Below the pieces are notes generated by a model. That model did not search any database, had not been told where the DNA came from, and saw only the letters and a program-made list of their open reading frames with translations. Positions 32,371 through 55,551 of a stretch of DNA of 64,000 nt are shown here, piece by piece. Positions within the stretch are counted from its first letter, which is position 1; every line of letters begins with the position of its first letter. The DNA comes from Methylomarinovum tepidoasis (GTDB taxonomy: Bacteria; Pseudomonadota; Gammaproteobacteria; Methylococcales; Methylothermaceae), in contig NZ_AP024718.1 of NCBI RefSeq assembly GCF_030294985.1, positions 1,503,001 to 1,567,000 on the forward strand, given 5' to 3'. The position numbers and the translations under genes were made by a program.

Positions 32371-32387
32371 ATATTTAATCTGACAAG

Positions 32388-33211: not shown

Positions 33212-33307
33212 GGAAGGCTCTCCTGACTTTGCGTTATAATATACATATCTTTACGGAATTATATACTGCTTTTTAAGGCTCCCGGTCACTTTTTCTGCCT
33301 CCTCTAG

Positions 33308-40634: not shown

Positions 40635-40671
40635 ATGCGGCATATGCCGCATATTTGCGGCATATGCCGCA
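40635..40671. promoter_or_regulatory. Two tandem 16-bp palindromes, likely activator-binding sites
   Basis: TGCGGCATATGCCGCA occurs twice (40636-40651 and 40656-40671), with centres 20 bp apart, about two helical turns. Each is a perfect palindrome; the first extends to 18 bp. The pair is centred about 110 bp upstream of the predicted sigma-54 start site, where enhancer-binding proteins normally sit. I do not recognise the regulator. The remainder of 40457-40825 shows no gene. Confidence 0.75.
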
Positions 40672-40737
40672 TTTTATGTTCCCGCGCATCCACCGGCACG
40701 ATCTGCAATCTGTTTGAATTCAATGGGTAAGCAATAT

Positions 40738-40752
40738 TGGACCGGATTTTGC
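40738..40752 (+). promoter_or_regulatory. Sigma-54 promoter of the multiheme cytochrome array
   Basis: TGGACCG-GATT-TTGC matches the -24/-12 consensus with GG and GC exactly ten bases apart. Transcription would start near 40764, leaving a leader of about 62 nt before the ATG at 40826. It shares the GATTTTGC half with the PEP-CTERM promoter at 28230. Confidence 0.68.
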
Positions 40753-40825
40753 TAAATGCAGGAGACCAGGTCGTAGCCGCTTTATCGGCCATCCATCGCA
40801 AAGCAAACCTTGAATGAGGGGGAAC

Positions 40826-43618
40826 ATGAAAAAACGATATGTGTGGCTTCTGCTCGGGCTCGGATTCGGCCCGGCACAGGCCAAGGTCAACTGGATCGAC
40901 AAACCGGTGGAGCATCCGGCGATCCCCTTGCTGGACGAGAACGGGAAGCATGTGCTCGAAAGCGGCATGCCCTACAGCCCAAGAAAGAGCTGCGCTGGAT
41001 CCGGTTGTCACGATTACGACAAGATCACCTCCGCCTACCACTTCGAAATGGGGCGGGACGAGGCGCGCGACGATTTCGGCAAGTTCAGTCCTTTCCTGGG
41101 GGCCAAATCCCTGGTCAGCCCCGGTTGGTTCGGGGGCTTCAACTGCATGGGGGGCAGCATCCCCACCTTCCTGGCCAACAAGAGCAACGGTTATAAGGAA
41201 ATGATCCGGGACTACGGGGCGGCCGGTTTCATCGGTTGTTCCAGTTGCCATGCCGGTGGCGGTTTCGGCGAGAAGGACCGGGAAGGCATCCGCTATACCG
41301 ATCGCGATCCGGCTACGATTCCCTTGTGGGATGGCGACTACTACAACCGCGGCACCGACGAGAACAACCAGAAGACCGACAAAAGCGTGGTGGCCAAGTG
41401 GGACTGGCACAAGAGCGGCCTTCTGGAGGCCGATTGCATGTGGTGCCACATGAGTCCCGACGAGGTGAAACTGCCTGACGAGCGCATGTCCCTGAGCCGT
41501 GGCATCATTGGCGCCTACCGCAACGCCCGGCGCGAGTTCATCAGCGGCGGCTGGTTTCGCTACGCTGCCAACACCGCCTGGGAATTCGTTCCCACTGTCG
41601 ACGGCAAGCAGCTCCTGACCATCGAGCGGGATTGGAGCGAGGACGGAAAAAGCTACGAGCTCAAAACCGGAGAGGACGGCAATCCGGTGATTCACTGGAA
41701 TCCGGAAGCCTTCGACGAGAACGGCCGTATCCACGTCAAGATGCTGCGCTTCCCGGAGAGCGACAACTGCATGTCCTGTCACGTAACTAGCAACTCCCGC
41801 CGCGGTTTCTACGGTTATGGCGACAACGCCCGCATGGAGCTGGGCGAGGACGGCACCCTGGTGGAGGATTACCAGGACGACGTCCACAAGGACAAGGACC
41901 TGGGCGAGTACTGGCACGGCGAATCGCGCATCATGGACAACTGCAATGTCTGCCACAGCCGCGCCTACCTCAAGACCCGCCATGAGAACGTGAATCTGGA
42001 CCAGGATCACAATTTCATGAAGGGCAACTCGGATATGGACATCCGCAACGACCTGGACTTCTCCGCCGACCTTCGCACCTGCGAATACTGTCACGTGGAG
42101 GGCAGGAACCCGCGCGGCGAGCCGGCGGTGATTCCGTCCGGTCAGGACAGCCTGCTGGCGGCCCACCTGGAGCGCTGGAAGAACAGCGGCTACATGACCG
42201 GCTACAGTCAGCAAAGCCTGAACCGGGTGGTGCAGACCCACTTCAACGTCCTCAATTGCCAGACCTGCCACATCACCGGCAAAAAGGGACGGGGTGGCAG
42301 GCCGTTGCAGATCATGTACCGCTACCGGGACGATGTGGACGGCAAGCGCAAGATCGTCCCCTACAACCCGCGCCTGCGCTATCTGTGGATCGACACCACC
42401 ACCGGGTGGGCGTTGACCCGCTACGAGCGCGGCCTGGTCACCAAACAGCAAGTGGATGAGAACGGCGAACCGATCAAGGACGGCCGCAACTTCGTTTTCG
42501 ATATCGTCGATCCGGAGACCGGCGAGAAGCTGCCGGGTACGGTGTTGGGGCGCGTCTCCCATGGCAGCCTGCGGATTGGAGATCCGACGGACGCCGACGG
42601 TTACCGCTCTCTCAAGCGCGCCTATGACAAGCTGATGCAGATGCGTCACGGGCCACAATTGAACGGCCGCAACCCGGATGTGAAATTGGTGTGGTTGGAA
42701 TCCAACGAGTACATCATCTCCCACAACGTCCGTCCGGCGGCCGATTCGGTTCCCTGCGGCGACTGCCACGCCCGGAAACAGGACGGTTCCTACAGCTCGC
42801 TGCTGAAGGAAGACGGCATCCTGGGATCGGGAAACAGCAAGTATGTGGCCACGCTGCCGGATCCGAAGCTGGTGGAAGAAGGCGTGGTGGTGCTGGGAAT
42901 GCCCTACATGCGCATCGACGGCGACGGCGCCATTTATGAAAACGAAAAGGACATTCTGTTCACTACCCTGGCGAATCCGTTCATGACCGTCAACGACGCG
43001 CCGGAAAGCCGCTTCTTCGGTGGTTTCCTGCGGAAGATGCCGTTGAAGCGGGTGACGGGGTTGAGCGGCCTGCCGCCGGAAACGGTCAGACAGTACGGTC
43101 AGCGCTATGGCGAAGACACGCCGCTGTATGCCCTGGTGCCTCGTTATGGCAAGGACACCCTGCGCAAGACCATCGTCGCCCTGCCGGTCAACACCGTGAC
43201 CGACGCTTTGGCGCCGAAGTGGCGCGCCGAGCTGTTGCTGTTCCCGCGTTCGGCCCAGCTCACCGACCTGCTGCACAGCCGCGGCTTCGGTGACCTGGCC
43301 TCCGATGTGATCCACGTCAGCATGCTGGACGATCACAAGCGGGCCATAACCGATCTGTTCGGCAACCGGTTGATCGTGAAGCTGCCTTACCGCGGCAGGG
43401 CCGGAAACGTCAACGGCATCGAGGTGCTGATGTCGGTGGACGGCCGGGAAATCCACCGCATCGATCCGCAGGACATCGTCGACTTCGTGCCGGCGACCCA
43501 GGCGAGTGGAGAACGGCTGCCAGGCTCCCAGGTATCCAACCCGGACCTGGATGTGGAGGATGGCTACGTGATCTTCCTGGCCGACCAGCCCGGCTTCTTT
43601 GCAGTGGTCGATCGTTGA
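40826..43618 (+). CDS. Octaheme c-type cytochrome, exported
   Basis: Protein of 930 residues with a Sec signal peptide (MKKRYVWLLLGLGFGPAQA). Heme motifs in order: an unusual CX4CH (CAGSGCH, from Cys56), then CSSCH, CMWCH, CMSCH, CNVCH, CEYCH, CQTCH and CGDCH, so up to eight hemes, all in the first ~670 residues. The last ~230 residues lack Cys-heme motifs and look like a beta-rich domain. There is no lipobox; it is soluble in the periplasm or secreted. It is the first gene of the array, after a GAGGGGGAA ribosome-binding site, and by size and position a candidate terminal reductase or surface cytochrome. Substrate unknown. Confidence 0.88.
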   Translation: MKKRYVWLLLGLGFGPAQAKVNWIDKPVEHPAIPLLDENGKHVLESGMPYSPRKSCAGSGCHDYDKITSAYHFEMGRDEARDDFGKFSPFLGAKSLVSPGWFGGFNCMGGSIPTFLANKSNGYKEMIRDYGAAGFIGCSSCHAGGGFGEKDREGIRYTDRDPATIPLWDGDYYNRGTDENNQKTDKSVVAKWDWHKSGLLEADCMWCHMSPDEVKLPDERMSLSRGIIGAYRNARREFISGGWFRYAANTAWEFVPTVDGKQLLTIERDWSEDGKSYELKTGEDGNPVIHWNPEAFDENGRIHVKMLRFPESDNCMSCHVTSNSRRGFYGYGDNARMELGEDGTLVEDYQDDVHKDKDLGEYWHGESRIMDNCNVCHSRAYLKTRHENVNLDQDHNFMKGNSDMDIRNDLDFSADLRTCEYCHVEGRNPRGEPAVIPSGQDSLLAAHLERWKNSGYMTGYSQQSLNRVVQTHFNVLNCQTCHITGKKGRGGRPLQIMYRYRDDVDGKRKIVPYNPRLRYLWIDTTTGWALTRYERGLVTKQQVDENGEPIKDGRNFVFDIVDPETGEKLPGTVLGRVSHGSLRIGDPTDADGYRSLKRAYDKLMQMRHGPQLNGRNPDVKLVWLESNEYIISHNVRPAADSVPCGDCHARKQDGSYSSLLKEDGILGSGNSKYVATLPDPKLVEEGVVVLGMPYMRIDGDGAIYENEKDILFTTLANPFMTVNDAPESRFFGGFLRKMPLKRVTGLSGLPPETVRQYGQRYGEDTPLYALVPRYGKDTLRKTIVALPVNTVTDALAPKWRAELLLFPRSAQLTDLLHSRGFGDLASDVIHVSMLDDHKRAITDLFGNRLIVKLPYRGRAGNVNGIEVLMSVDGREIHRIDPQDIVDFVPATQASGERLPGSQVSNPDLDVEDGYVIFLADQPGFFAVVDR

Positions 43619-43623
43619 GAGAA

Positions 43624-43652
43624 GGGGGGAAGAAAACCTTCTGCTTCCCCCC
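43624..43652. terminator. Intergenic hairpin after the first cytochrome gene
   Basis: The stem GGGGGGAAG / CTTCCCCCC with an 11-base loop begins 6 bp after the octaheme stop codon. A second, imperfect stem (AGGGGCCCC / GGGGTCCCT) lies at about 43688-43710, followed by CCTTTT. They may attenuate transcription or stabilise the first gene's message relative to the rest of the array. Confidence 0.55.
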
Positions 43653-43729
43653 GGTTGAACGCCCTTGTTCAGAACTGCCTTGATTTCAGGGGCCCCCACG
43701 CGGGGTCCCTCCTTTTGCGGAGGAGAAAA

Positions 43730-43954
43730 ATGCTGAAAACACTTTGGTTCAAAACGGTTCCCTGGCTGGCCGGCGTTGGAATCGCCGGCGGCCAGGCGGG
43801 GCTGGCGACCCGCTGTACGGTTCCCCAGCAGGGCCTCTGCTCCGGCTGCGGCAGTTGCGCGGTGGTGGCAGCTTCCCTGGTGACCTGGGCGGTGATGGCC
43901 AAGAAACGCCGCGGCGGGGATTTTTACACCGTGACCACGGAAGAAAGCCGCTGA
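43730..43954 (+). CDS. Small membrane protein with CX6CX2CX2C cluster
   Basis: Protein of 74 residues. A hydrophobic N-terminal segment (TVPWLAGVGIAGG) is followed by RCTVPQQGLCSGCGSC, four Cys spaced CX6CX2CX2C, then a membrane helix (AVVAASLVTWAVMA) and a basic tail. The Cys spacing suggests an Fe-S cluster or metal site at the membrane surface. It contains no CXXCH. I recognise no family. ATG at 43730, preceded by GGAGGAG; an in-frame start at 43655 lies within the hairpin region and has no ribosome-binding site. Confidence 0.7.
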   Translation: MLKTLWFKTVPWLAGVGIAGGQAGLATRCTVPQQGLCSGCGSCAVVAASLVTWAVMAKKRRGGDFYTVTTEESR

Positions 43955-43961
43955 AGTTGCG

Positions 43962-45218
43962 ATGCGCCGCCTTCTGGTCCTGGTCGGGATGTTTCTTTGT
44001 GGCGGCGCCGGGGCGGCGGGTCTGAGCGCCATGCTGGAAAGCAAGTTTCAGGTGGACAACCGTTTCAACACCAGCCCACGGATCCTGGGAGAGATATGGG
44101 GCGATGCGGAGCTGCTCGAGCCAGGCCGCTGGCGTGCCCACGCCTCCTGGGCCGGCCGCCTTTCCAGCCTCAGCGACGACAGCGGCGGCCGCCTGTATCA
44201 GGCCTTCTGGGAAGGATTGTGGCCCAGATTCCAGGGGGCATTGCGGCTGGGGCGGTTCCAGCGCGCCGATCTGGCCGGGTTTTACCTGTTGGACGGCGGT
44301 CAGTTGGATTATCGGTTAAAGGGGTGGCAGGTTCAGTGGTACGGCGGCCGGCCGCTGCGCCTCGATCACGTGCGCAGCATCGAAGGCGATTCGGTATTCG
44401 GCGTCACCCTGGAGCGCGACGAAGCAAAAGACCGCTGCTGGCGGGGATTCTGTTGGCGGGGTTACCGGACGGTGTTCGCTTATCAGGCGTTCCGCAATCA
44501 CCGGTTGTCCCGCCGTCTCCAGGGCACCGCTTCGGTACGGGGAAACCGGGGAGAACGGCAGGCTTGGGAAGCGGCCCTGAGCGCCACCTACCGTTTCGAC
44601 CGTCGCCGCTTCGAGGATGTCTGGTTCAACGGCTTCATCGACCTGACGCCGGCCTTGCGCTTTCGCACCAATTACGAGTACTACCGGCCCCGCTCGCCGT
44701 TTCCCACCTTTCGAGAACGCTTCGTCAGCGCCTACGCCCTGGGAGAGCAGAGTTTGTTCCGCGCCGAACTGCACCACCGCCCCCGGCCGTCCCTTCATTA
44801 TTACCTGGGGGGACAGCGGGCCACCAAGGCGGACGGTTTCGACGGTTACGGCCTGATCGGCGGGGGGGATTACCGCTGGCGCGACACCGTTTTCGCGCTG
44901 CGTTACGATTTTCTGGAAATCGGTTACGACCGCGCCCACAGCGGCTACGGCCAGATCCGCCATGCCTTCAGCTCCCGTTTGGAAGCGTGGATCAACGGCG
45001 CCGTCCGGCGGGAGGAGAAATGGCTTTACGGCGTCAACTGGGTTCGGGGCGGGGAGGCCGGTTTCCGTTACCACATCGGCAGCGGTTGGACGGTGCAAAC
45101 CAGCCTGTCCTACATCGCTAACAGCCGGCGCCGCGACGATTACGTCGGCGCGGTGCGGGTGATCTACTACCTCGACCGTTTTCAGCCCAAGGGGAAGCCA
45201 TGCGTCTGGTCCTGTTGA
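43962..45218 (+). CDS. Putative outer-membrane beta-barrel protein
   Basis: Protein of 418 residues with a signal peptide (MRRLLVLVGMFLCGGAGA). The mature part consists of alternating amphipathic strands rich in Tyr, Trp, Arg and Gly (for example LRFRTNYEYYRPRSP, GYGLIGGGDYRWRDTVFALRYDFLEIGYD), as in a barrel of roughly 16-18 strands. There is no heme motif. Strands end at VRVIYYLDRF, with the Phe typical of barrel ends, but the frame runs 11 residues further and overlaps the next gene by 19 bp. Among multiheme cytochrome genes it may be the porin part of a porin-cytochrome conduit, shorter than MtrB. Confidence 0.72.
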   Translation: MRRLLVLVGMFLCGGAGAAGLSAMLESKFQVDNRFNTSPRILGEIWGDAELLEPGRWRAHASWAGRLSSLSDDSGGRLYQAFWEGLWPRFQGALRLGRFQRADLAGFYLLDGGQLDYRLKGWQVQWYGGRPLRLDHVRSIEGDSVFGVTLERDEAKDRCWRGFCWRGYRTVFAYQAFRNHRLSRRLQGTASVRGNRGERQAWEAALSATYRFDRRRFEDVWFNGFIDLTPALRFRTNYEYYRPRSPFPTFRERFVSAYALGEQSLFRAELHHRPRPSLHYYLGGQRATKADGFDGYGLIGGGDYRWRDTVFALRYDFLEIGYDRAHSGYGQIRHAFSSRLEAWINGAVRREEKWLYGVNWVRGGEAGFRYHIGSGWTVQTSLSYIANSRRRDDYVGAVRVIYYLDRFQPKGKPCVWSC

Positions 45219-45790
45219 TGCTGTTGCTGTGCTGGTTGGGCGGGCAGGCCGCCGAAACCGCCAGGGAAAAGCGCTGGTGGGAGAAGCGGGAGGCGCGCAA
45301 GCCGGACATCTACTTTCCCCACAACGTCCACATGGCGGTCATGAAGCAGGAAGGGGACATGTGCATGCTGTGTCATTCGTTCCAGAAGACCGACGAGAAG
45401 GATCTCAAGCTGCTGAAAGACCTGAGCGCGGTGGTCAACGAACCCCTCAAGGCGGTGTGTCACGACTGCCACGTGGTGGAACGGCGGGCGCCGTGGCGCT
45501 GCGAGCTGTGTCATCCCGACAAGACCAGGATCTGGCCGGCCGATCACAATTTCGGCTATGTCCAGCATCACGCCACCGCCGCCCGGCGCGACGAGAACGC
45601 CTGCCGCGAGTGCCATTTGGAGCTGTCCTTCTGCACCGACTGCCATTTCCGCCGCGAGATCTCCGGTACCGGTTACCACCCCCTCGGCTACCTCACCCTG
45701 CACGGCATGGAGGCACGCACCATGCCCGCCAACTGCGGCCGCTGCCACAACAATTTCTACTGTGACAATTGCCACCGGAGGCGGCGATGA
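45200..45790 (+). CDS. Heptaheme c-type cytochrome, periplasmic
   Basis: Protein of 196 residues with a signal peptide (cleavage near QAA, residue ~18). Seven CXXCH motifs: CMLCH, CHDCH, CELCH, CRECH, CTDCH, CGRCH and CDNCH, about one per 25 residues, with extra His (FPHNVHMAVM, DHNFGYVQHH) for bis-His ligation. Such density is typical of cytochrome c7/NrfH-like electron-transfer wires. It overlaps the barrel gene at its start and the next cytochrome gene by 4 bp at its end. It could sit inside or next to the barrel. Confidence 0.88.
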   Translation: MRLVLLMLLLCWLGGQAAETAREKRWWEKREARKPDIYFPHNVHMAVMKQEGDMCMLCHSFQKTDEKDLKLLKDLSAVVNEPLKAVCHDCHVVERRAPWRCELCHPDKTRIWPADHNFGYVQHHATAARRDENACRECHLELSFCTDCHFRREISGTGYHPLGYLTLHGMEARTMPANCGRCHNNFYCDNCHRRRR

Positions 45791-46746
45791 GATTCGGGTG
45801 GCTGGTGATCATGCTGCTATTGGCCGCAGGCGTGGCGGCGGCCAAGGGACGGGATGTCTCTTTGGCGCGCAATCAAGTGCTCCTGACCGAACGCCATGAA
45901 GGCTGGGGCAAATCCCGCTGTCAGGCCTGCCACGTGCTGTCGCTGATTCATAAAAACGCCCCGCATATCCGCGGCATCGTGCGGAACAAGGGGTTTGACA
46001 CCTGCACGGGTTGCCACGGTGACAACGGCGCCGCCGCCAAGCGTCCCTGCCTGGTGTGTCACAATGATCGTGATCTGCCGTTGTCCCCGCTTCAAACCGG
46101 CGCCCATACCCACGATTTCGACCGCCTTGCCGACCGCCCCTTGACCGATCAGGACTGTCTGGTCTGTCATCAGGCGGCCGATATGGACGGGGTGTGGGAA
46201 CGGAACGTGGATCTGACGCGGATTCCCGACGCCACCGGCCTGGCCGATCCCTACCGCCACGAATCCGAGTTCTGCCTGCGCTGCCACAACCGCGACCATC
46301 AGCAGCCCGGTTTCGCGCTGCGCGCTTTCGATTACCGCGATCCCTTGATCGCCATCGAGGAAGACTGGCGCCATATCGACACCCACGGCTACCCCAGGGG
46401 CAGCGGCCAGCGCACCTACGCCGGCCTGCGCCCCCCTTACCGCTATCCGGCGGTGCTCGCCTGCACCGAGTGTCACGCCATGCACGGCACCGAAAATCCC
46501 AAGCTGATCATCGACGACAGCCGCAAAGGCGCTTTCCTGCTCCCATTCCGCGATGCGGGGATTCCGGTGCGGGTGTTCAGCGACATCGGCGATTATTCCC
46601 AGTTGTGCGTGTTGTGCCACCAGATGGAAACGCCGGTGGAAGACGCCCTGATCGATACCGGCAACGGCTTGTATGGCGTGCATCAGGTCGGCGCCAACTG
46701 CACCTTGTGTCACACCCACGGACGTGCGGCCCAGGTGGGATTATGA
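45787..46746 (+). CDS. Octaheme c-type cytochrome, periplasmic
   Basis: Protein of 319 residues with a signal peptide (MRFGWLVIMLLLAAGVAAA). Eight CXXCH motifs: CQACH, CTGCH, CLVCH, CLVCH, CLRCH, CTECH, CVLCH and CTLCH. The mature protein is free of other recognisable domains. Closely coupled to its neighbours on both sides through ATGA overlaps, so it is made in step with them. Probably a soluble electron carrier between the inner membrane and the outer-membrane part of the array. Confidence 0.88.
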   Translation: MRFGWLVIMLLLAAGVAAAKGRDVSLARNQVLLTERHEGWGKSRCQACHVLSLIHKNAPHIRGIVRNKGFDTCTGCHGDNGAAAKRPCLVCHNDRDLPLSPLQTGAHTHDFDRLADRPLTDQDCLVCHQAADMDGVWERNVDLTRIPDATGLADPYRHESEFCLRCHNRDHQQPGFALRAFDYRDPLIAIEEDWRHIDTHGYPRGSGQRTYAGLRPPYRYPAVLACTECHAMHGTENPKLIIDDSRKGAFLLPFRDAGIPVRVFSDIGDYSQLCVLCHQMETPVEDALIDTGNGLYGVHQVGANCTLCHTHGRAAQVGL

Positions 46747-47612
46747 GACGGTTTCTCTGGGGGCTTGCGCTGATGGTGGCTTCCGTGGCGGCGGAAAAGC
46801 CCAAGGTGCCGCCGTTGCATCATCTGGTGGATATCCGTGTGCCGGATTCCATGCAGGTCGATCCTGCGCTGCCGCTTCCCGCCGACCGCAAGCTCACCTG
46901 TCCGGTATGCCACGGCATCAAGGACATCGACAAAAAGGATTTCGACAAGGTGGACAAGGACGATCCCAATTTTCTCCGCGGCGGTCCCTACCGGGATCTG
47001 ACCCGGTTCTGTTTCCGCTGCCACGATCAGGAAAGCCACCAGCGCCCCAACATCCACGCCATGCTGGACGACAAAGGCGGGATCAGGAAGGACCACTGTC
47101 TCTATTGCCACGAGAAGGCGCCTGAACGCGACCGCCGCTACCGCCTGGAGGAGGTCAAGCTGCGGGCGCCGCCGGACAAGCTGTGCTGGGGGTGCCATCT
47201 CAAGACGCCCCACCTCAACGCCCTCGAGCATCAGGTGAAACCTTCGAAAAAGGTGAAAAAACAGCGGAAAACGTTCCTCCGTGATCATCCGGAGGCGATC
47301 CTGCCTTTGACCAGCGACGGGCGGGTGACCTGCATCACCTGTCATACCCCCCATCCGCCGGGGGTGATCCGCAAGGATCTGCCGGCGGCCCATCAGGTGG
47401 CCGGCGCCAAGGTGGAGAAAGGGCCGGTTTACGGCGACAGCCCGTGGGAAAAGACCCTCGCCGAGGACAAGGGGGCGCGGCTCGCCGAGCTGAGCCGCAA
47501 ATACGGGCGGCCGCTGACGTTCCGTTATCGCCAGATTCGGAAGGAGGCCCTGTTGCGCCTGCCCGCCAAGGACGGGCAGCTGTGCGGGGCCTGCCACGTG
47601 TTCGATCAATGA
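46743..47612 (+). CDS. Hexaheme c-type cytochrome, periplasmic
   Basis: Protein of 289 residues with a short signal peptide (MRRFLWGLALMVASVAA). Six CXXCH motifs: CPVCH, CFRCH, CLYCH, CWGCH, CITCH and CGACH, the last five residues before the C terminus. A Lys/Asp-rich stretch (DIDKKDFDKVDKDD) separates the first two. Overlaps the previous gene by 4 bp and is followed after 10 bp by the NapH-like gene. It may receive or give electrons to that membrane protein. Confidence 0.87.
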   Translation: MRRFLWGLALMVASVAAEKPKVPPLHHLVDIRVPDSMQVDPALPLPADRKLTCPVCHGIKDIDKKDFDKVDKDDPNFLRGGPYRDLTRFCFRCHDQESHQRPNIHAMLDDKGGIRKDHCLYCHEKAPERDRRYRLEEVKLRAPPDKLCWGCHLKTPHLNALEHQVKPSKKVKKQRKTFLRDHPEAILPLTSDGRVTCITCHTPHPPGVIRKDLPAAHQVAGAKVEKGPVYGDSPWEKTLAEDKGARLAELSRKYGRPLTFRYRQIRKEALLRLPAKDGQLCGACHVFDQ

Positions 47613-47622
47613 GGAGGTCGTG

Positions 47623-48654
47623 ATGAGAACCTTATCCGTCTGGCGCCGCTGGCAGGCGGTGCCGAAAATGCAGAAATTCCGTTATGGCGTCATCGCCGCA
47701 TCCTGTCTCGCTTTCCTTGGGCCGCTGGCGTTTCTGCCCCAACTGGTGGGCAACAAGGACCTGTGCGGGGTGCTGTGCATGCGCCGCTTCTATCTCTATT
47801 TTCCCGGCATGAGCTTCGAGGATCTGTGGATGCACGTGTCGGTGGCCTGGATCGGGGTCATCGCCTTCTTCACCATCATCACCGTGACCTTTTTCTTCGG
47901 CCGCATCTGGTGTTCCTTCCTCTGTCCTGTGGGCGGCTTCAGCGAGCTGGTCAGCCGCGCCTTGGGGGAACGCTGGAAGATCGATTATCGCTTTCTGCCG
48001 CAGGTGCCGATCCGCTACGGTTATCTGGCCGCCTACCTGGTGCTGTTGCCCATGGCGGGGGTGAGCGCCTGCACCCTGTGCAACTTCGTCACCGTGCCCC
48101 GCTTCGTCTCGGCCCTCACGGGAGGGGCCGCCGGGCTGGCTTTCATCTTCTCCACCATCGGCCTGGCGAATCTGGCCATGTTGCTGCTGTTGGGTTTCTT
48201 TTCCGAGAAGGGACGGGCCTATTGCCAGCTCATGTGTCCCATCGGCGCTATCGACGCCTTGGTCAACCGCCTGGGAGCCAAGTTGCGCATGACCTACCAC
48301 ATCCGGGTCGAGCGCAGCCGCTGCACCGGTTGCAACGAGTGCGCCAAGGCCTGCATGTGCGGGGCCATCAAGATGGTGGACCGCATCGCCACCGTGGACC
48401 AGACTTCCTGCATGTCCTGTCACGACTGCGTCGATCATTGCGAATGGCACGCCATCGAATGGACGCCGGGACCGCGCCAGAAGACGCCCAAGCGGGTCAA
48501 GCAGGGGATTCAGATCTTCCCCGAGCCCCAGTGGCAAGCTTTCGCTCCCAAAAGCTCCGTGGGAACGGTGGACTGGAGCCGTCTGGTCAATGGCCTGATC
48601 ATCACCTTTTTGTTGTCTTTCATCGCCATCACTTCATGGTCCAACTGGTTCTGA
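47623..48654 (+). CDS. NapH-like membrane polyferredoxin
   Basis: Protein of 343 residues with four to five membrane helices. The paired WCSFLCPVGGF and CQLMCPIGAID motifs are characteristic of NapH/MauN/NosR-type quinol oxidoreductases. A cytosolic loop after about residue 225 carries two 4Fe-4S motifs, CTGCNECAKAC and CMSCHDCVDHC; the CMSCH in the second is a cluster ligand site, not a heme site. Such proteins pass electrons between the quinone pool and periplasmic cytochromes. ATG at 47623 chosen for correct spacing to GAGGAGG. The last 19 bp overlap the diflavin-cytochrome fusion gene. Confidence 0.88.
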   Translation: MRTLSVWRRWQAVPKMQKFRYGVIAASCLAFLGPLAFLPQLVGNKDLCGVLCMRRFYLYFPGMSFEDLWMHVSVAWIGVIAFFTIITVTFFFGRIWCSFLCPVGGFSELVSRALGERWKIDYRFLPQVPIRYGYLAAYLVLLPMAGVSACTLCNFVTVPRFVSALTGGAAGLAFIFSTIGLANLAMLLLLGFFSEKGRAYCQLMCPIGAIDALVNRLGAKLRMTYHIRVERSRCTGCNECAKACMCGAIKMVDRIATVDQTSCMSCHDCVDHCEWHAIEWTPGPRQKTPKRVKQGIQIFPEPQWQAFAPKSSVGTVDWSRLVNGLIITFLLSFIAITSWSNWF

Positions 48655-51512
48655 TCTTCACCGCCCTGTGGGCCGCCGGCGCGGCGGCCCTGGAGCGCCA
48701 TGCCGACCCGGACGGCTGTCTGAGCTGTCACAGCCTGCCAGGGTTGGAATATTTCGATGACCAGGGGGTGCGGCGCACCGCCACCATCCTGAAGGAAGCC
48801 TATTACGGCTCCCTGCACGGCAGCGTCCCTTGTCGCGACTGTCACCGTAAGATCCGCGACTATCCCCACGATCCCAAGAACGGCTATGTGGATTGCTCGG
48901 CCAGCTGCCACGTGGAGGAGCCTTCGGAGGGCAAGCGCTTCAGTCACAAGGACATCGTGGAGGAATTCAAAAAATCGGTCCACGGCATGGGCAAGAAGGC
49001 CGGCTGGACCAAGGATTTTCATGGCGGCAACCGCCTCGAGGAAGTCGAAAACCAACAAAATCCTTCCTGCCGCTATTGCCATTACAACGAGCCTTACATC
49101 CCTCCCCACCGCCTGGCCCAGTTCATGGAGGCGTTCGGCCACGTGGACACGGAATGCGGCAGTTGTCATCAGGGGGAGGTCTGGCGCGATCAGTTCGGCG
49201 GCCACATCCTGCGCCGCCTCATCGGCAACCACTATTCCAAGAACGACGCCAACGCCCTGTGCGTCTGTTGCCACGGCGACCACAAGAAGATGAAGGCGGC
49301 GAAGATCCGCGATCTGGAAACCGGCGAGATGAAACCGGCCGCGCCGCGTTTCGTCTTCGCCGTGGACAGCTACGCCAAGTTCCTGCATGCCCGCCTGCTG
49401 GAAGTGGGGGTGGAGGACGGCGCGTCCTGCATCGACTGCCATGCGCCGGAAGACGAGGGCTTCCGCCACGGCATCCTGTCCCACCGCGATCCCAAGGCCA
49501 GCACCCATCCGGACCATCTGGCCGACACCTGCGGCCAGTCCGGTTGCCACGGCGACTACGCCAAAAATCCCCTGAACCGCGGCTTTCTGCTCACCGACAT
49601 GCACGATATGGCCTGGGTGCCGCTGGATCGGATCCGGAAGGCCGGCTTCGATCTCGAGGTGGTGAAGGATTCTCCCTGGTGGACGGTGGTCTGGATTTTG
49701 GGGCCGCTGGCGGCGCTGTTCCTGGTGGGCCAGGCGCTGTGGTGGCTGTGGGAGAACAGGGACGAGGCGGTGCCGATCCTCGGCGGGGGGAAATTCCGCA
49801 CCATCATGCTGGAGATGCCCGCGCCCCCCGCCTGGTGGCGGCGTTTGTTGGGATCCGAGGAGGAAGCCGCCTCCCTGGAACCGGGCGGGGATCTCGATGA
49901 CCATCTGGTCATCCTCTACGGCTCCCAGACCGGCAACGCCGAAGGGGTGGCCGAACAGCTGTTCCATTTGGCCGAACGCTGGCAGCTGCCGGTCCGGCTC
50001 ATCGACATGGCCGAGCTGGAGCCGAAGGAACTGGCGCGTTTTCAGTATCTGTTCGTCCTCACCAGCACCCAGGGGGAAGGGGAACCGCCCCTCAATGCCC
50101 AGAACCTGCACCGTTATCTGAAGGAACTTTCCGAAAAAAGCCACGAAAAGCCGCTGTTGCCGCACCTGCACTATGCGGTCTTCGGCCTCGGCGACAGCAG
50201 CTATACCTACTTCTGCCAGTGCGGCAAGGATTTCGACGCCTTCCTGGAAAAGCTGGGCGGCGAACGGGTGCTGCCGCGGGTGGACGCCGACGTGGATTAC
50301 GAGGAGCCTGCGGCCGAATGGCTGGCCAAGGTGATCGAGATCTACCGTAAGCTGAGCGGCCACGAAGGGGTCGAGCCGCCGCCAGAGAAAGCCCCGGCGG
50401 AGAGTGGTTATGGCAAGCAGCGCCCCTATCCGGCGCCGGTATTGGTCAACCGCAACCTCAACGGCCCTGGTTCGGCCAAGGAAACCCGCCATATCGAATT
50501 CTCCCTGGAAGGCAGCGGGCTGAGCTACGAACCGGGGGACGTGCTGGGGGTGTATCCCACCAACCCGCCGGCCTACGTGGAGGACCTGCTCCGGGTGTTG
50601 GGGTGGAGCGGCTATGAGGAAGTGGAGCTGTCGGGGGAGCGTCTGAGCCTTAGGGAGGCTTTCTTCAGCCGTTTGGACATCACCTCTCTGACCCGGCCGC
50701 TGCTGGAGAAATACGCCGAGGCCAGCGGCGCCGAACTTCAGCCCCTGTTGGCCGACGCCAAGGCGCTGGAGGACTATCTCTGGGGGCGGCAGTTGATCGA
50801 TCTGGTGGAGGACTATCCGCCGAAGCTGGATCCCCAGGCCTTCGTCGCCCTGCTGCGCAAGCTGCCGCCACGGCTGTATTCCATTTCCTCCAGCCCCCGC
50901 ATGCATCCCGGCCAGGTCCATCTGACCGTGGGCGTGGTGCGTTACCACAGCCACGGCCGCGACCGCGAAGGGATCTGTTCCAATTACCTGGCCCGGCGCC
51001 GGCCGGGGGAGACGGCGCTGGCGTTCGTCCAGGTCAACGACCATTTCCGCCTGCCCCAAGACGGCAGCGCCGATGTCATCATGGTGGGATCGGGAACCGG
51101 TATCGCCCCGTTCCGCGCCTTCCTGGAGGAGCGGGAGGCCAGCGGCGCTGCGGGCCGCAATTGGCTGTTCTTCGGCGATCAGCATCAGGCCACCGATTTC
51201 CTCTATGCCGAGGAGTTGGAAGACAAGCGCAAGCGGGGTGTGCTCACCCGCCTGTCGCTGGCCTTCTCCCGCGATCAGGAGCGGCGCATTTACGTCCAGC
51301 ACCGGATGCAGGAGGAGGCGGTCGAGCTGTACGCCTGGCTGGAAGGCGGTGCCTACTTCTATGTCTGTGGCGATGCCTCGCGGATGGCCAAGGACGTCCA
51401 CTGCACCCTGGTGGAGATCCTCATGGGCCAGGGAGGGCTGAGCGAGGAAAAGGCCGAGGCGTATCTCAAAACGATGGAACAGGAAGGCAGGTATCAGCGG
51501 GATGTCTATTAA
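48636..51512 (+). CDS. Octaheme cytochrome - membrane helix - CysJ-like NADPH diflavin reductase fusion
   Basis: Protein of 958 residues. A signal peptide (MVQLVLIFTALWAAGAAA) is followed by a periplasmic domain with CLSCH, CRDCH, CSASCH (CX3CH, Cys87), CRYCH, CGSCH, CVCCH, CIDCH and CGQSGCH (CX4CH, Cys299). A single membrane helix spans about residues 348-373, with basic residues after it, so the rest is cytosolic. Then come a flavodoxin domain (LYGSQTGNAEG near 427), an FAD-binding domain (RLYSISSSP near 746, GICSNYLA) and an NADPH-binding domain (VGSGTGIAPFRAF near 817, YVCGDASRMAKDV). It ends YQRDVY exactly like sulfite reductase CysJ. This joins an NADPH oxidase module to periplasmic hemes in one chain. 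The start overlaps the NapH-like gene. Electron direction and partner are unknown. Confidence 0.9.
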   Translation: MVQLVLIFTALWAAGAAALERHADPDGCLSCHSLPGLEYFDDQGVRRTATILKEAYYGSLHGSVPCRDCHRKIRDYPHDPKNGYVDCSASCHVEEPSEGKRFSHKDIVEEFKKSVHGMGKKAGWTKDFHGGNRLEEVENQQNPSCRYCHYNEPYIPPHRLAQFMEAFGHVDTECGSCHQGEVWRDQFGGHILRRLIGNHYSKNDANALCVCCHGDHKKMKAAKIRDLETGEMKPAAPRFVFAVDSYAKFLHARLLEVGVEDGASCIDCHAPEDEGFRHGILSHRDPKASTHPDHLADTCGQSGCHGDYAKNPLNRGFLLTDMHDMAWVPLDRIRKAGFDLEVVKDSPWWTVVWILGPLAALFLVGQALWWLWENRDEAVPILGGGKFRTIMLEMPAPPAWWRRLLGSEEEAASLEPGGDLDDHLVILYGSQTGNAEGVAEQLFHLAERWQLPVRLIDMAELEPKELARFQYLFVLTSTQGEGEPPLNAQNLHRYLKELSEKSHEKPLLPHLHYAVFGLGDSSYTYFCQCGKDFDAFLEKLGGERVLPRVDADVDYEEPAAEWLAKVIEIYRKLSGHEGVEPPPEKAPAESGYGKQRPYPAPVLVNRNLNGPGSAKETRHIEFSLEGSGLSYEPGDVLGVYPTNPPAYVEDLLRVLGWSGYEEVELSGERLSLREAFFSRLDITSLTRPLLEKYAEASGAELQPLLADAKALEDYLWGRQLIDLVEDYPPKLDPQAFVALLRKLPPRLYSISSSPRMHPGQVHLTVGVVRYHSHGRDREGICSNYLARRRPGETALAFVQVNDHFRLPQDGSADVIMVGSGTGIAPFRAFLEEREASGAAGRNWLFFGDQHQATDFLYAEELEDKRKRGVLTRLSLAFSRDQERRIYVQHRMQEEAVELYAWLEGGAYFYVCGDASRMAKDVHCTLVEILMGQGGLSEEKAEAYLKTMEQEGRYQRDVY

Positions 51513-52284
51513 GCGTTGGATCGGCTTCGTTGTCCTGGGATTGGCCTGGGGCGCAGCCCAGGCGCAGCCCGACTATATCCAGGCGGTGGAACAGGCCCGC
51601 CCCGATCCGGAAACCCTGGCCAAGGCGCGGGAAAAGGTGAAAAAGCACAAGGCTCTGAAGATCCGCGACGATATCGATGCCAAGCTGCCGCATTTTCACC
51701 GCCGTACGGAAAAGAAGGTGACGCAAGGAGAGACCTTTTGCCAGATCTGCCATCTGCCGTTGCCCCATCAAAAGTCGGTGCGCACCCGCGCCTTCCTGAA
51801 CATGCACAGCCGCTTCGTCGCCTGCGCCACCTGCCACTACCGGCCCCAAGGCAAGGCGCTGGACTACCTTTGGCTCGACTACCGCAGCGGCAGGGCGGTG
51901 GCGGGGGAAGGACGGCTGCGTACCGGCACCGACACCCCCGCCAGCCAGCCCCTCGACGGTTGGGTGAAGATCGCCCCCTTCGTGGAGAATGAGCCGGTGG
52001 TGCCGCTGCCGCAGGATCCGTGGGCGGAGGCGACCGCCCGTCGCTGGCGGGAGAGCGGTCTGGAACAGCGGGCCGAGCTTCAGGCCCGGTTGCATCTGCC
52101 GCTGGAAGAGCAGGGGCCCAAGTGCAGCGACTGTCATCAGGAGGAACGGCCGTTGCTGGACCTGGAGCGCCTGGGCGTTTCCAGAGAACAGGCCCGTCTG
52201 GTCTATCGCCACATGATTCCGCAGTTCTTCGGCCGCTATCGGGACCAAGATCAGAAGATCCGCATCATCGACATCACCCAGTGA
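51502..52284 (+). CDS. Triheme c-type cytochrome, periplasmic
   Basis: Protein of 260 residues with a signal peptide (MSIKRWIGFVVLGLAWGAAQA). Three CXXCH motifs: CQICH near residue 80, CATCH near 110 and CSDCH near 210. A helical Lys-rich N-terminal region (LAKAREKVKKHKALKIRDD) precedes the first heme. It overlaps the fusion gene by 11 bp and the next gene by one base (TGATG). Low heme density suggests a structural or docking role rather than a wire. Confidence 0.85.
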   Translation: MSIKRWIGFVVLGLAWGAAQAQPDYIQAVEQARPDPETLAKAREKVKKHKALKIRDDIDAKLPHFHRRTEKKVTQGETFCQICHLPLPHQKSVRTRAFLNMHSRFVACATCHYRPQGKALDYLWLDYRSGRAVAGEGRLRTGTDTPASQPLDGWVKIAPFVENEPVVPLPQDPWAEATARRWRESGLEQRAELQARLHLPLEEQGPKCSDCHQEERPLLDLERLGVSREQARLVYRHMIPQFFGRYRDQDQKIRIIDITQ

Positions 52285-54920
52285 TGAGAACCATCCTGCT
52301 GTTGCTCCTGTGGTTGCCTCTCGCCCCGGCCCTGGCCGCGCCGTGGCCGCAGGTAACGAAACGCGCCGTGGTCGGCCGTCTGCCGCAACCGGCGGCGGTG
52401 GCGGCATCTTCCCGGGCGTTGGCGGCCCTGGATGCGGAAGGACGGCTGTGGCGCTGGCCCGTCGGAGGCGGCGGCAAACCCGCGGTAAAGGAATACGGCT
52501 TCGACCGCCCTTTGGGGCTGGCGCCTTTGGAAGGCGGCTGGCTGGTGGCCGACACCGGCCACGGACGCCTGGTCTGGGTGGGTGGCGACGGGGCGGTAAA
52601 GCGGCAGTGGCCGTTGACGCTGCCTTGCCTGGAGGCGGAAACCCCCTGCACGCCCAAGACGCCCCGGCCGGTTTCGGTGGCGGCGGTCGCCAACGAACTG
52701 GTCTGGAGCGACCGCAATCATTTGTTGTGCCGCATCGACCGGGACGTCGGCGCGCTGCAGGGTTGTGTCGGCGGTTACGGGCGCATGGAAGGGCAGTTCC
52801 AGTATCCCTTTCAGATCGCCGTCGATGAGAGCGGTTTCCTGTTGGTGGCCGACGTGCTGGGAGGACGGGTGCAGATGTTCGACCGCAAGGGACGGTATTT
52901 CGCCCAGTTCGGCCGCTTCGGCATCGCGGAAGGGGAACTGTACCGCCCCAACGGCGTCGCCCTCGATCCACAGCACGGGCTGGCTTTCGTCAGCGACGCC
53001 TATTTCGGCGCCATCGCCGTGTTCCATCAGGGAGAGCCGCTGGGGCGGCTGGAAGACGCCAGCGGCCGCCCTGTCATCCTCGATACCCCCAGCAATCTGT
53101 TTTACCGCGATGGAAAACTCTACGCCGCCGAAACCGGCGCCGACCGGATCGTCGTTCTCGATTTGGCCTTTAGCGAACGGGAACCGCCCGCCTTTTCCGC
53201 CTCCGGTCTTTCCGTGTCGCAGAAGGATTGCCTGCTGTGCCATCTGGAGTTCGCCAAAGAGGCGCCGTTGGAAATCAGAGGGCCTGACGAGCTGGGGCAG
53301 TTGCCGGTGGCCCGGTTCCGGATGTGCTACAGCTGCCATCATGGCCCGGTGGTGGATTCCCGTATGATCATTCGCGCCGGGGCCCAGCACCCGACCCTCT
53401 ACGATCCCGAATTGAAGCGGAAGAAACGCCCCTGGCCGCGGGAGGACGAGCTGCCGGACGTGTTCCCGATCACCGAGGAACACCAGCTCACCTGCACCAG
53501 TTGCCATACGCCCCATACCGCCGAGATCGAAGGGACGACTCTGTATCCCGATCACAAAAACCCCTGGTTGCGGGTTCCCAACCCCGAGGGGCGGTTGTGC
53601 GAACGCTGTCACGAATCCAAGGCCAAGGGGGCGCGCGATCCCGACGATTCCCATCACGGCGTCAATCATCCCCTGGGAATCAGGTTGCGGCCATCGCCTT
53701 ACAAAGGCGCGCCGGGGTATCCTGCCGATCCGGGTTTGACCCACGGCCTGCCCGACAGCTTGCGGAAGGCCGGCGGCATGCTGGGCCCGGACGACACTCT
53801 GGCATGCCAGAGTTGCCATCAGATCCACGGTGGCGTCAGCGACGATCTGTTGTTGCTCGACGATGACCGGGGGCAGCTCTGCCGCCAGTGCCATAGACGC
53901 CAGTTCAGCCGTAGTAAAAGGGAAGCCCGTCGCAAAGGGGTCCATCCCGTCAACGTCAAGCCGGAGGAAAAGATCCTTCGCGGCGGCAAACGGGTTCGTT
54001 TCGTCACCTGCGGCAGCTGCCACCCGGTCCACGACGGCAAGCCGCAAACGCCGATGCTGCTGAAACCCGCCGAATCCCTATGCCAGGACTGCCACCCGCG
54101 CCAGCACGCCAAGGACAAGGACGACGCCCGCCGGAAGGGAGTGCACCCGGTCAATGTGACGCTGGAGGAACCGGTCACCATCGCCGGACAGCGTTGGAAA
54201 AAAGTCGGTTGCCTGACCTGTCATGCGGTTCACCGGGGTCGTCCCAATACCCCTGCGCTGGTGGAGGATCATCACGACGGCCGGTTGTGCCGCCACTGCC
54301 ATGAAGACAATAGCCCGGTGCTGGGCAGCGATCACGATCTTCGCATCACCGCCAAGGACAGCCGCAACCACTTCGACGAAACCCCGGCCCAGGCCGGCCT
54401 GTGCGGCGCTTGCCACACCTTGCACCGGGGCAAGGGCAAGTGGCCTTATCTTTATGCGGCCAAGATCGTCGGCCATCCGCAAAAGCCCGCTGAGGACGGC
54501 GATAGCACGCCATTTCGGCGCGACCAGCTATGCCTCAACTGCCATCAGGATCATCCCCAGGCGGTGGCTAAGGATAAGGTGGTGAAGTTTTTCAGCCATC
54601 CCCACAAGGACATCGTGCTGCGATCCGAGCCCGACAGGATACCGCTGCTCGATGCCAGGGAGCAGGACAGCGAAACCGGTGCCATCGGCTGTACCACTTG
54701 CCACGATCCTCACGTCTGGACCCCCAGGCACCGTCAGGCGAAGCGCCCGCCGCTGGCGGCCAACCGCAAGAACCTGGAGGGCGACCCCCACTCCAGCTTT
54801 CTGCGCCAGCTGCAGCCGCAGAAGACCTTCTGCCTGGGATGCCACGGTCTGGAAGTGCGGGAAAAGTACAAGTACTTCCACGACGATTTCGTCCGCGGGG
54901 TGGTCGATTATCTGCGATAA
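52284..54920 (+). CDS. NHL beta-propeller fused to a 14-heme c-type cytochrome
   Basis: Exported protein of 878 residues with a signal peptide (MRTILLLLLWLPLAPALA). Residues ~25-310 form an NHL-type propeller (GFDRPLGLAPLEGGWLVADTGHGRLV, GQFQYPFQIAVDESGFLLVADVLGGRVQMF, GELYRPNGVALDPQHGLAFVSDAYF). The rest has 14 CXXCH motifs: CLLCH, CYSCH, CTSCH, CERCH, CQSCH, CRQCH, CGSCH, CQDCH, CLTCH, CRHCH, CGACH, CLNCH, CTTCH and CLGCH. Two near-identical segments (ARRKGVHPVNV at about residues 548 and 614) show internal duplication. It is the last cytochrome gene of the array. The propeller may dock a partner or bind a substrate. Confidence 0.88.
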   Translation: MRTILLLLLWLPLAPALAAPWPQVTKRAVVGRLPQPAAVAASSRALAALDAEGRLWRWPVGGGGKPAVKEYGFDRPLGLAPLEGGWLVADTGHGRLVWVGGDGAVKRQWPLTLPCLEAETPCTPKTPRPVSVAAVANELVWSDRNHLLCRIDRDVGALQGCVGGYGRMEGQFQYPFQIAVDESGFLLVADVLGGRVQMFDRKGRYFAQFGRFGIAEGELYRPNGVALDPQHGLAFVSDAYFGAIAVFHQGEPLGRLEDASGRPVILDTPSNLFYRDGKLYAAETGADRIVVLDLAFSEREPPAFSASGLSVSQKDCLLCHLEFAKEAPLEIRGPDELGQLPVARFRMCYSCHHGPVVDSRMIIRAGAQHPTLYDPELKRKKRPWPREDELPDVFPITEEHQLTCTSCHTPHTAEIEGTTLYPDHKNPWLRVPNPEGRLCERCHESKAKGARDPDDSHHGVNHPLGIRLRPSPYKGAPGYPADPGLTHGLPDSLRKAGGMLGPDDTLACQSCHQIHGGVSDDLLLLDDDRGQLCRQCHRRQFSRSKREARRKGVHPVNVKPEEKILRGGKRVRFVTCGSCHPVHDGKPQTPMLLKPAESLCQDCHPRQHAKDKDDARRKGVHPVNVTLEEPVTIAGQRWKKVGCLTCHAVHRGRPNTPALVEDHHDGRLCRHCHEDNSPVLGSDHDLRITAKDSRNHFDETPAQAGLCGACHTLHRGKGKWPYLYAAKIVGHPQKPAEDGDSTPFRRDQLCLNCHQDHPQAVAKDKVVKFFSHPHKDIVLRSEPDRIPLLDAREQDSETGAIGCTTCHDPHVWTPRHRQAKRPPLAANRKNLEGDPHSSFLRQLQPQKTFCLGCHGLEVREKYKYFHDDFVRGVVDYLR

Positions 54921-54957
54921 TCCCGGCTATCTGACTCCTGCGGGAAGGAGGCGAGCG

Positions 54958-55551
54958 ATGGGAATGCGATGGTTGGTTGGGTTCTGGTTCCTGTGGCTGC
55001 AGGTTGCGGCGGCCACGTCGGTGCGGGAGGCCGGTCTGGACGAGATGCTGCGCAACTCGGAGCTGGTGTTCCGGGGGCAGGTGAGCGGCAGCGAAATCCG
55101 GGATGACGGCCCAAGACCCTATACCCGCGTCACCTTCCGGGTCGAGGCGATCATCAAGGGCGATTACGACGGCGATACCTTGAGCCTGGATTTTGCCGGT
55201 GCCCCTGCCCGCGGCCTGCGGGTGGATGAGATGCGCTATCCCCAGCCGGGGGAGCGGGGCATCTATTTCGTCGAATCCCTCCGGCGCCGCCAGGCCAATC
55301 CCCTCTACGGCTGGTCCCAGGGGCATTTCAGGATCGTGGTGCGGAACGGCCGCGCCGTGGTGGTCGGCGGCGACGGCAAGCCGGTGGTGGCGGTGACCGG
55401 GTCGCCCAAGGGAGAGAATGGCGCCAGGTGGGCTTTGAGCCGGGGGGTTCCCAAAGGGGTGCGCACCGAAAGCCGGGCCTGGGACAGGGGGCTGACGCCG
55501 GTACAGTTCGAAGACCTATTGCGTCAGCGCCTGGAGGCGCTGCAGCCATGA
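54958..55551 (+). CDS. Exported protein of unknown function
   Basis: Protein of 197 residues with a signal peptide (MGMRWLVGFWFLWLQVAAA). The mature part begins with REAGLDEMLRNSELVFRGQVSGSEI and continues as a beta-rich domain (YTRVTFRVEAIIKGDYDGDTLSLDF, GERGIYFVESL). It resembles exported proteins found next to matrixin-like proteases, and indeed overlaps such a gene by 4 bp; it may be an inhibitor or chaperone, but that is a guess. GGAAGGAGG precedes the ATG. It lies 37 bp after the 14-heme cytochrome gene and may belong to the same transcript. Confidence 0.65.
   Translation: MGMRWLVGFWFLWLQVAAATSVREAGLDEMLRNSELVFRGQVSGSEIRDDGPRPYTRVTFRVEAIIKGDYDGDTLSLDFAGAPARGLRVDEMRYPQPGERGIYFVESLRRRQANPLYGWSQGHFRIVVRNGRAVVVGGDGKPVVAVTGSPKGENGARWALSRGVPKGVRTESRAWDRGLTPVQFEDLLRQRLEALQP

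Follow-up and report, generated by a model that had tools for sequence, protein, structure and literature searches.

We analysed a 64,000-nucleotide stretch of the genome of the deep-sea methanotroph Methylomarinovum tepidoasis (contig NZ_AP024718.1, positions 1,503,001 to 1,567,000; hereafter the window), which carries a gene set resembling an envelope-spanning electron-transfer system. Nine co-directional genes, here called A to I, span positions 40826-54920 of the window according to the open reading frame (ORF) calls. They are as follows.

40826-43618, plus strand: gene A, 930 amino acids (aa), an octaheme cytochrome (seven CXXCH motifs and one CX4CH) with a C-terminal ZU5/GAIN-like domain
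43962-45218, plus strand: gene B, 418 aa, without a heme motif, modelled as a 22-strand beta-barrel and predicted to lie in the outer membrane
45200-45790, plus strand: gene C, 196 aa, a heptaheme cytochrome with seven CXXCH motifs, or 28 aa per heme
45787-46746, plus strand: gene D, 319 aa, an octaheme cytochrome with a weak match to the DmsE/MtrA family
46743-47612, plus strand: gene E, 289 aa, a hexaheme cytochrome
47620-48654, plus strand: gene F, 344 aa, a NapH-like polytopic iron-sulfur (Fe-S) membrane protein
48636-51512, plus strand: gene G, 958 aa, a fusion of an octaheme domain, a transmembrane segment and a CysJ-like reductase, with six CXXCH motifs, one CX3CH and one CX4CH
51502-52284, plus strand: gene H, 260 aa, a triheme cytochrome
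52284-54920, plus strand: gene I, 878 aa, an NHL beta-propeller joined to a 14-heme cytochrome

The genes are tightly packed, with overlaps of 19 bp (B-C and F-G), 4 bp (C-D and D-E), 11 bp (G-H) and 1 bp (H-I), and gaps of 343 bp between A and B and 7 bp between E and F. An initial annotation of this DNA had described overlaps of 4-19 bp throughout after the first two genes; the overlaps are indeed present, but they range from 1 to 19 bp and are interrupted by the E-F gap. It had also started the cluster at 40635, a position at a tandem palindrome upstream of A; the first gene begins at 40826.

Counting motifs gave 54 hemes in the seven cytochromes, made up of 51 CXXCH and three CX3CH/CX4CH motifs (8, 7, 8, 6, 8, 3 and 14 hemes in gene order), identical to the earlier count. 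The single CXXCH of F sits within a ferredoxin cluster motif and was left out. A chance origin of the heme motifs is excluded, because all seven genes that hold them are conserved, with the same numbers of hemes seen again in other lineages. The longer motifs are real as well, since their cysteines and histidine are invariant: C56, C61 and H62 of the CX4CH of A in 39 out of 39 aligned sequences, and both cysteines and the histidine of the CX3CH and CX4CH of G in 14 out of 14. Histidines outside the motifs that are conserved in at least 90% of sequences number 7 for 8 hemes in A, 7 for 7 in C, 7 for 8 in D, 6 for 6 in E, 9 for 8 in the octaheme domain of G and 4 for 3 in H; in I, there are 12 for the 12 conserved motif histidines of its 14 hemes. 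This pattern of roughly one such histidine per heme suits wires of bis-histidine hemes, with one heme each in A and D having no conserved second histidine.

At the inner-membrane end, F combines a Fer4_5 domain, found in 39 out of 39 F sequences, with a two-cluster ferredoxin domain (residues 235-274, positions 48322-48441). Its scores fall below the family cut-offs for NapH (TIGR02163, 63.7 against 213.05 bits) and CcoG (TIGR02745, a weak match with an E value of 9.2e-5 and 21.6 against 316.7 bits). Sixteen cysteines are kept in all 63 aligned F sequences, that of the window included: eight in the ferredoxin domain, C98/C102/C202/C206 in two CX3CP pairs, and C49/C53/C151/C154. Hydropathy and charge predict that the ferredoxin cysteines and C98/C102/C202/C206 face the cytoplasm and that C49/C53/C151/C154 face the periplasm. 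Four of the seven NosR-like proteins aligned were readable (L176, L181, L184 and L186), and none has a cysteine pair at C151/C154; that alignment starts after C49/C53, so the comparison covers C151/C154 only.

G consists of the octaheme domain (approximately residues 1-340), one transmembrane helix (approximately residues 350-368, positions 49683-49739) and a CysJ-like part (approximately 49902-51509) with complete flavodoxin (flavin mononucleotide, FMN), flavin adenine dinucleotide (FAD) and NAD(P)-binding domains. A Protein Data Bank (PDB) sequence search with the octaheme domain returned nothing meaningful. The reductase part matches CysJ best (TIGR01931), narrowly missing the cut-off of 668.15 bits with 657.5, and its best solved relatives are the sulfite reductase flavoproteins 6efv and 9c91. 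It retains the SRDQ..IYVQ residues and the C-terminal DVY of CysJ, which presumably bind NADPH as in the CysJ/P450-reductase family. We read F and G as an inner-membrane module that would pass electrons from NADPH to periplasmic hemes and so feed a barrel-cytochrome conduit.

For the outer half, we predicted the structures of A and B, that of B with AlphaFold2 from a 45-row alignment. The B model has 22 strands, by our count of its listed elements, at a mean pLDDT of 88.5, and its fold matches (TonB receptors, OprD-type porins, MOMP and ushers) are outer-membrane barrels. The prediction shows an outer-membrane type of barrel, from which kinship with MtrB does not follow; MtrB was absent from the best 50 rows of the fold-match lists. 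B is thus predicted to provide the kind of barrel that characterizes Mtr/Pcc porin-cytochrome conduits, and multiheme genes lie directly beside it, with A and C flanking B. The barrel, the NapH-like protein and the diflavin reductase fusion listed in the initial annotation were all borne out, the last by the CysJ-type NADPH diflavin domains of G.

PDB sequence searches with A and C gave nothing meaningful, and a profile of A had no match with an E value below 1. Residues 728-930 of A (approximate limits) adopt a ZU5/GAIN-like fold in the model (best Z 10.3, root-mean-square deviation [rmsd] 3.5, 135 residues aligned). The A model is of moderate quality (pLDDT 72.3), its heme part being less well modelled than the C-terminal domain. 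The octaheme tetrathionate reductase family TIGR04315 matches 39 out of 39 A sequences (best E value 4.1e-16), with the window's A at 19.5 bits against a cut-off of 375 and none of 61 genomes above that cut-off. The only multiheme chain among the best 50 fold matches of A is the octaheme cytochrome 1SP3 (Z 4.8, rmsd 4.8, 283 aligned, 19% identity). We regard A as the putative cell-surface terminus and C as a candidate wire that would lie within barrel B. As for the remaining cytochromes, D matches the DmsE/MtrA family TIGR03508 with an E value of 3.7e-9; the bit scores of D (36.4), I (42.5), E (23.6) and H (22.4) are below the cut-off of 192.2. In I, the NHL propeller precedes the 14 hemes, and its relatives of similar or greater length carry 12-20 CXXCH motifs. 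A Cytochrome_C554 search of the genome gave no matches.

A separate frame of 892 aa (L150:859-3534, genome G045) resembles octaheme tetrathionate reductase over most of that model. Its best piece scored 123.7 bits, below the cut-off, and it had no BLAST match to A.

We then searched 81 genomes, comprising that of M. tepidoasis and 80 relatives, with A and the octaheme domain. A was present in 17 and the octaheme domain in 18, three of the latter matches being weak (E values 1.9e-9 to 4.7e-6, in G017, G056 and G074, all without A). All 15 genomes with a strong octaheme match have A, and the 64 genomes without A yielded only the three weak matches. In the genomes with A alone, the contig ends inside the cluster (within E in G002 and within A in G005), and there was no octaheme match elsewhere in them.

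Scanning genome contigs with an octaheme alignment yielded 69 loci, not each from a genome of its own (both L100 and L102 belong to a single metagenome-assembled genome [MAG]). They occur in Methylothermaceae, Methylococcus capsulatus Texas, Methyloprofundus, Methylobacter, Methylomonas and mussel symbionts; in the Beggiatoa relatives Parabeggiatoa, Halobeggiatoa, Thioploca and Venteria; in Chromatiales-labelled and unclassified Gammaproteobacteria; and in one MAG each labelled Nitrosomonas and Polarisedimenticolaceae. The order A-I is complete in 36 of the 69 loci, and 24 of the remaining 33 stop 0.6 kb or less from the contig or locus end on the side of the missing genes. The octaheme domain of the fusion gene therefore recurs with the rest of the cluster, a co-occurrence that had been put forward as a check, and the conserved order and the complementary fusions described below favour the earlier proposal that the parts form one system. 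The setting had been given as a methylotroph; this holds for the host, but the set extends to Beggiatoa relatives and Chromatiales-labelled MAGs. We rejected a restriction to methanotrophs, as the 26-row clade with F-octaheme fusions includes five Thiotrichaceae, which are relatives of Beggiatoa, and Chromatiales-labelled MAGs.

Fusions were tabulated in 65 rows, from 64 loci and the window; no octaheme row from L127, L131, L132, L134 or L135 passed the coverage filter. F and G are separate in 35 rows, F and the octaheme domain share one frame in 19, the octaheme domain is fused to the reductase in 8, and 3 have no usable F. The tree, which was built from a short search with SH-aLRT support only, holds 61 rows, those outside being the three without usable F and L067, in which F is cut. 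In it, a single branch (SH-aLRT 98) sets the seven reductase fusions apart from all other rows, and two changes are required to explain the F-octaheme fusions. One hydrophobic segment separates the ferredoxin domain of F from the first heme in 19 out of 19 F-octaheme fusions. Likewise, one transmembrane segment lies between the hemes and the flavodoxin in each of the four scored database reductase fusions, the other three of the seven lacking the motif used for junction scoring. Because the octaheme domain is joined to F in some lineages and to the reductase in others, the classical sign of partnership, the ferredoxin and reductase parts inside and the hemes outside would belong to one complex.

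The reductase fusion is found in Methylothermaceae, Methylococcus, other Methylococcaceae MAGs and the Nitrosomonas-labelled MAG. The locus in the latter (L070, Nitrosomonas sp. GW-Mt58) has all nine genes and the reductase fusion at 49% guanine-cytosine (GC) content, by transfer or a binning error.

CysJ-type reductases 53-61% identical to that of G also occur in frames of 731-756 aa elsewhere (L140:2207-4474 in G009, L141:2091-4283 in G001, L144:2654-4921 in G011, and frames in G002 and G007). In L140, the reductase is preceded by a molybdopterin-binding domain like that of FwdD, subunit D of formylmethanofuran dehydrogenase; the N-termini of L141 and L144 look similar by eye, the domain scan covering L140. 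Because a CysJ-type reductase follows an FwdD-like domain there, the L140-type frame suggests an NADP(H)-linked formylmethanofuran dehydrogenase.

Further investigation tied the cluster to published work, cited here from passages of the papers. The initial annotation had not recognized the gene set, a view we reject: it matches the copper-regulated operon MCA0424-MCA0433 of M. capsulatus, already proposed as an electron exporter (PMC517821, PMC4831470). The operon of M. capsulatus Bath was noted in 2004 by Ward et al., who placed MCA0424 in the cytochrome c553o family (PMC517821). Larsen and Karlsen (2015/16) described a putative eleven-gene operon with 58 CxxCH motifs in eight cytochromes and MCA0427 as the barrel. 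They found the region induced without copper, with the cytochromes of the mapped operon rising 2.3-8.6 fold, and MCA0424 and MCA0426, which we map as homologues of A, in the surface fraction; they considered it highly plausible that electrons are passed to the exterior (PMC4831470). The same paper reports a putative FUR box upstream of MCA0424 and TonB-family genes in the copper-responding cluster MCA0421-0447, and a later table sets MCA0424 apart from c553o and lists MCA0431 just as a multiheme cytochrome (PMC4831470). Tanaka et al. reported that copper-starved M. capsulatus Bath gives a formate-driven anodic current and reduces ferrihydrite, and they named electron uptake as one possibility when soluble methane monooxygenase (sMMO) drains NAD(P)H (PMC6281684).

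In M. capsulatus Texas (L058), the genes stand in the same order as in the window and with equal numbers of hemes, with A present twice, and the eight cytochromes there carry 7+7+7+8+6+6+3+14 = 58 CXXCH motifs. Because this order and count agree with the printed Bath operon, we infer that A to E correspond to MCA0426 (with MCA0424 its paralogue), 0427, 0428, 0428b and 0429, and F to I to MCA0430, 0431, 0432 and 0433. Two c553o-like proteins encoded upstream of the Texas operon, which we take by position and size to be of the MCA0421/0423 type, had no BLAST match to any window protein and, by profile, only a 4-bit match to C. Across Texas and G042, with two c553o-like proteins each, there was no BLAST or profile match to A. 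We thus rejected A as a cytochrome c553o; if our mapping is right, the comparison agrees with the later table on MCA0424. One c553o-like protein used as a query had no match in the M. tepidoasis genome and matched in 4 of 8 other genomes of the genus.

Among the matches listed in our literature search, which left most subscription papers outside its coverage, neither the octaheme-CysJ nor the F-octaheme fusion is described. Passages of PMC13322032, PMC11218250, PMC6295460, PMC10950024 and PMC8805035 describe no such fusion, PMC4688376 returned no matches, and the main text of PMC10950024 holds no word beginning with 'cytochrome'. The search also returned nothing on porin-cytochromes of Beggiatoa or on Methylomarinovum with multiheme.

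Judged from the genes present, their heme counts and conserved order, the invariant ligands, the barrel model and the two fusions that complement each other, the set appears to be a real and widely conserved trans-envelope electron conduit. In M. tepidoasis, the nine genes probably encode a route by which electrons of cytosolic NADPH reach the cell surface. Electrons would pass from NADPH to FAD and then FMN in the cytoplasmic reductase of G, and on to the two ferredoxin clusters of F, a natural step because CysJ normally reduces a [4Fe-4S] protein, CysI. From these clusters they would reach the periplasmic octaheme domain of G by way of the two cysteine quartets of F, one at each face of the membrane. 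The octaheme domain would then reduce the periplasmic cytochromes E, H, D and perhaps I, which would hand electrons to C inside barrel B, to octaheme A on the surface and finally to an extracellular oxidant. Flow is likely outward, with a mineral, Cu(II)/Fe(III) or redox overflow as candidate sinks, and the system likely serves to discharge surplus reductant or to reduce an extracellular metal, not as a stand-alone respiration. Of the earlier suggestion of NADPH/quinol as the donor, the NADPH part is supported in just the 8 of the 65 rows that have a fused reductase, and quinol found no support in this analysis. In relatives without the reductase domain, electrons would have to enter the F-octaheme core from quinol or from a different cytosolic donor, such as ferredoxin or flavodoxin.

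Several results weigh against a conduit from NADPH to the surface. The fused reductase is missing in 57 of the 65 rows; therefore, NADPH is not a universal donor. The crossing of the membrane inside F is deduced solely from cysteine positions. A PDB sequence search with B gave no meaningful match, and its top fold matches are TonB receptors and porins. Nine of the 69 loci depart from the order with room to spare. In the flanks of the reductase-fusion locus L071, A, H and I are all missing, and L077 lacks A although 2.9 kb would be available for it. The Thiotrichaceae loci L104, L107, L110, L115, L124 and L127 are broken up, and the ORF preceding C in L107 and L110 is not matched by profile B. 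At first this last result seemed to count against the conduit, but searching five whole Thiotrichaceae genomes (that of L127 not among them) then showed A in four and B in three, with neither in G084. L135 has none of the nine genes and, at 25% identity, is doubtful kin. M. capsulatus does not grow on Fe(III), and deletion of MCA0421 lowered its current only from 118 to 86 nA/cm2 (PMC6281684). The literature examined, in the parts available, contains no deletion of an orthologue of a window gene, the published mutant being that of MCA0421. That mutant, which removed a neighbouring c553o and no relative of A, would not test the nine genes, because the c553o-like proteins show no similarity to A.

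We weighed four other explanations. It is unlikely that the cluster serves metal acquisition, with NADPH driving a Cu(II)/Fe(III) reductase at the surface to mobilize metal for uptake and not for respiration, by a logic analogous to that of FRE-type reductases. NADPH rather than quinol would suit such assimilatory use, F has its weak CcoG match (21.6 against 316.7 bits), and in M. capsulatus copper starvation switches on the operon, which is accompanied by a putative FUR box and by TonB-family genes (PMC4831470). However, both M. tepidoasis and M. caldicuralii are without sMMO (PMC10950024), the part of the neighbouring ORFs scanned includes no metal transporter, and most rows (57 of 65) have no reductase. 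That A is instead a surface enzyme for a soluble compound, distantly related to octaheme tetrathionate reductase and fed by the rest of the set, is distinctly unlikely: the match of TIGR04315 to every A sequence, the fold match to 1SP3 and the room for one other ligand left by seven conserved non-motif histidines for eight hemes speak for it, whereas the 19.5 bits of A against 375, the lack of a PDB sequence match with an E value below 1, a Z of 4.8 in the range that the tool calls common and the moderate A model (pLDDT 72.3) speak against it.

An inward flow, in which electrons from outside would yield NADPH or reduce ferredoxin to serve methane oxidation or biosynthesis, is very unlikely. 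The set does occur in Beggiatoa relatives, which are lithotrophs, and Tanaka et al. proposed electron uptake as one possibility, but the M. capsulatus current is anodic and formate dependent (PMC6281684). NADP+ reduction from multiheme cytochromes would also be uphill, and we recognized no ion-pumping subunit in the set. A role of the CysJ-like domain in assimilatory sulfite reduction, with its fusion to a cytochrome incidental, we consider highly improbable. The near-cut-off TIGR01931 score would fit it, as would the fact that the reductase of G is the only CysJ-like match in the M. tepidoasis genome at E values of 0.001 or less. We rejected the reductase domain as a partner for sulfite reductase, however, on the one sulfite reductase (SiR)-like protein typed (608 aa), which is below both CysI cut-offs (157.0 against 457 and 110.8 against 756.55 bits); the other NIR_SIR_ferr match is an 896-aa frame. 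Moreover, the fusion is kept in all the groups named above, from Methylothermaceae to the Nitrosomonas-labelled MAG.

What was already known is the outer half, proposed as an electron exporter in M. capsulatus. Our additions are an inner-membrane module, the version of it that uses NADPH in a single lineage, the spread beyond methanotrophs and the finding that the known mutant lies outside the set. We also put forward, tentatively and as an idea that may well prove wrong, that F and the octaheme domain represent an undescribed class of inner-membrane oxidoreductase, in which an Fe-S chain across the membrane, made up of the two ferredoxin clusters and the cysteine quartet at either face, bypasses the quinone pool. 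One lineage would have captured a CysJ-type reductase to become an NADPH:extracellular-acceptor oxidoreductase, the core being found in methanotrophs and large sulfur bacteria. Aerobic methanotrophs can produce current and reduce iron by an unsettled route, for which the set names a complete candidate with NADPH as its entry point. The same machine would be at hand in Beggiatoa relatives, the methanotroph symbionts of mussels and other Gammaproteobacteria.

The surroundings of the cluster include the palindrome mentioned above:

40636-40651 and 40656-40671, no strand: two tandem copies of the perfect palindrome TGCGGCATATGCCGCA, 155-190 bp upstream of A

These are the only two full matches to TGCGGCATATGCCGCA in the genome, and a degenerate yet recognizable pair is present in M. 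caldicuralii (G003); the pair is a candidate regulator site. Divergently upstream, on the minus strand (36516-40456), lie an ORF with a PPDK_N domain (855 aa) and an ORF with FG-GAP repeats (523 aa). Downstream of I (54652-56840), an ORF without a Pfam match and an ORF for a matrixin-type metallopeptidase (Peptidase_M10) overlap as listed. The GC content falls to 52-54% at positions 28001-34000, against 60-70% over most of the window; this island holds a 1042-aa ORF containing carboxypeptidase-regulatory/Ig-like domains (28941-32069) and a DsbA-like protein on the minus strand (32402-33211).

Compared with known systems, the window differs from M. capsulatus in having a single A and no match to the queried c553o, whereas M. 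capsulatus has two A genes and adjacent c553o genes. The Methylobacter PCC cluster is likewise a proposed extracellular electron route in Methylococcales, but identity with it was rejected, since its four genes (a decaheme MtrA family protein, an MtrB/PioB barrel and two monoheme cytochromes) are different ones (PMC13322032, 2026). F resembles NapH, NosR and CcoG in its Fer4_5 domain with two CX3CP motifs and its two-cluster ferredoxin domain; it differs in four extra invariant cysteines on the predicted periplasmic face and in being linked or fused to an octaheme domain. The reductase of G has the full FMN, FAD and NADP domains and the C-terminal DVY of CysJ, but it is fused behind a periplasmic octaheme domain and a transmembrane segment, in a genome without a CysI by cut-off (one SiR-like protein typed). 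Like MtrCAB of Shewanella and OmbB-OmaB-OmcB of Geobacter, the set combines a barrel, a small periplasmic multiheme cytochrome and a large surface cytochrome. Unlike in those conduits, C has seven hemes, and neither B nor C gave a family-level sequence match. Known conduits start from quinol dehydrogenases of the CymA, CbcL or ImcH type, whereas the inner end here is an Fe-S protein with an octaheme/NADPH reductase; if true, an Fe-S link that crosses the inner membrane independently of quinones would set this system apart from them.

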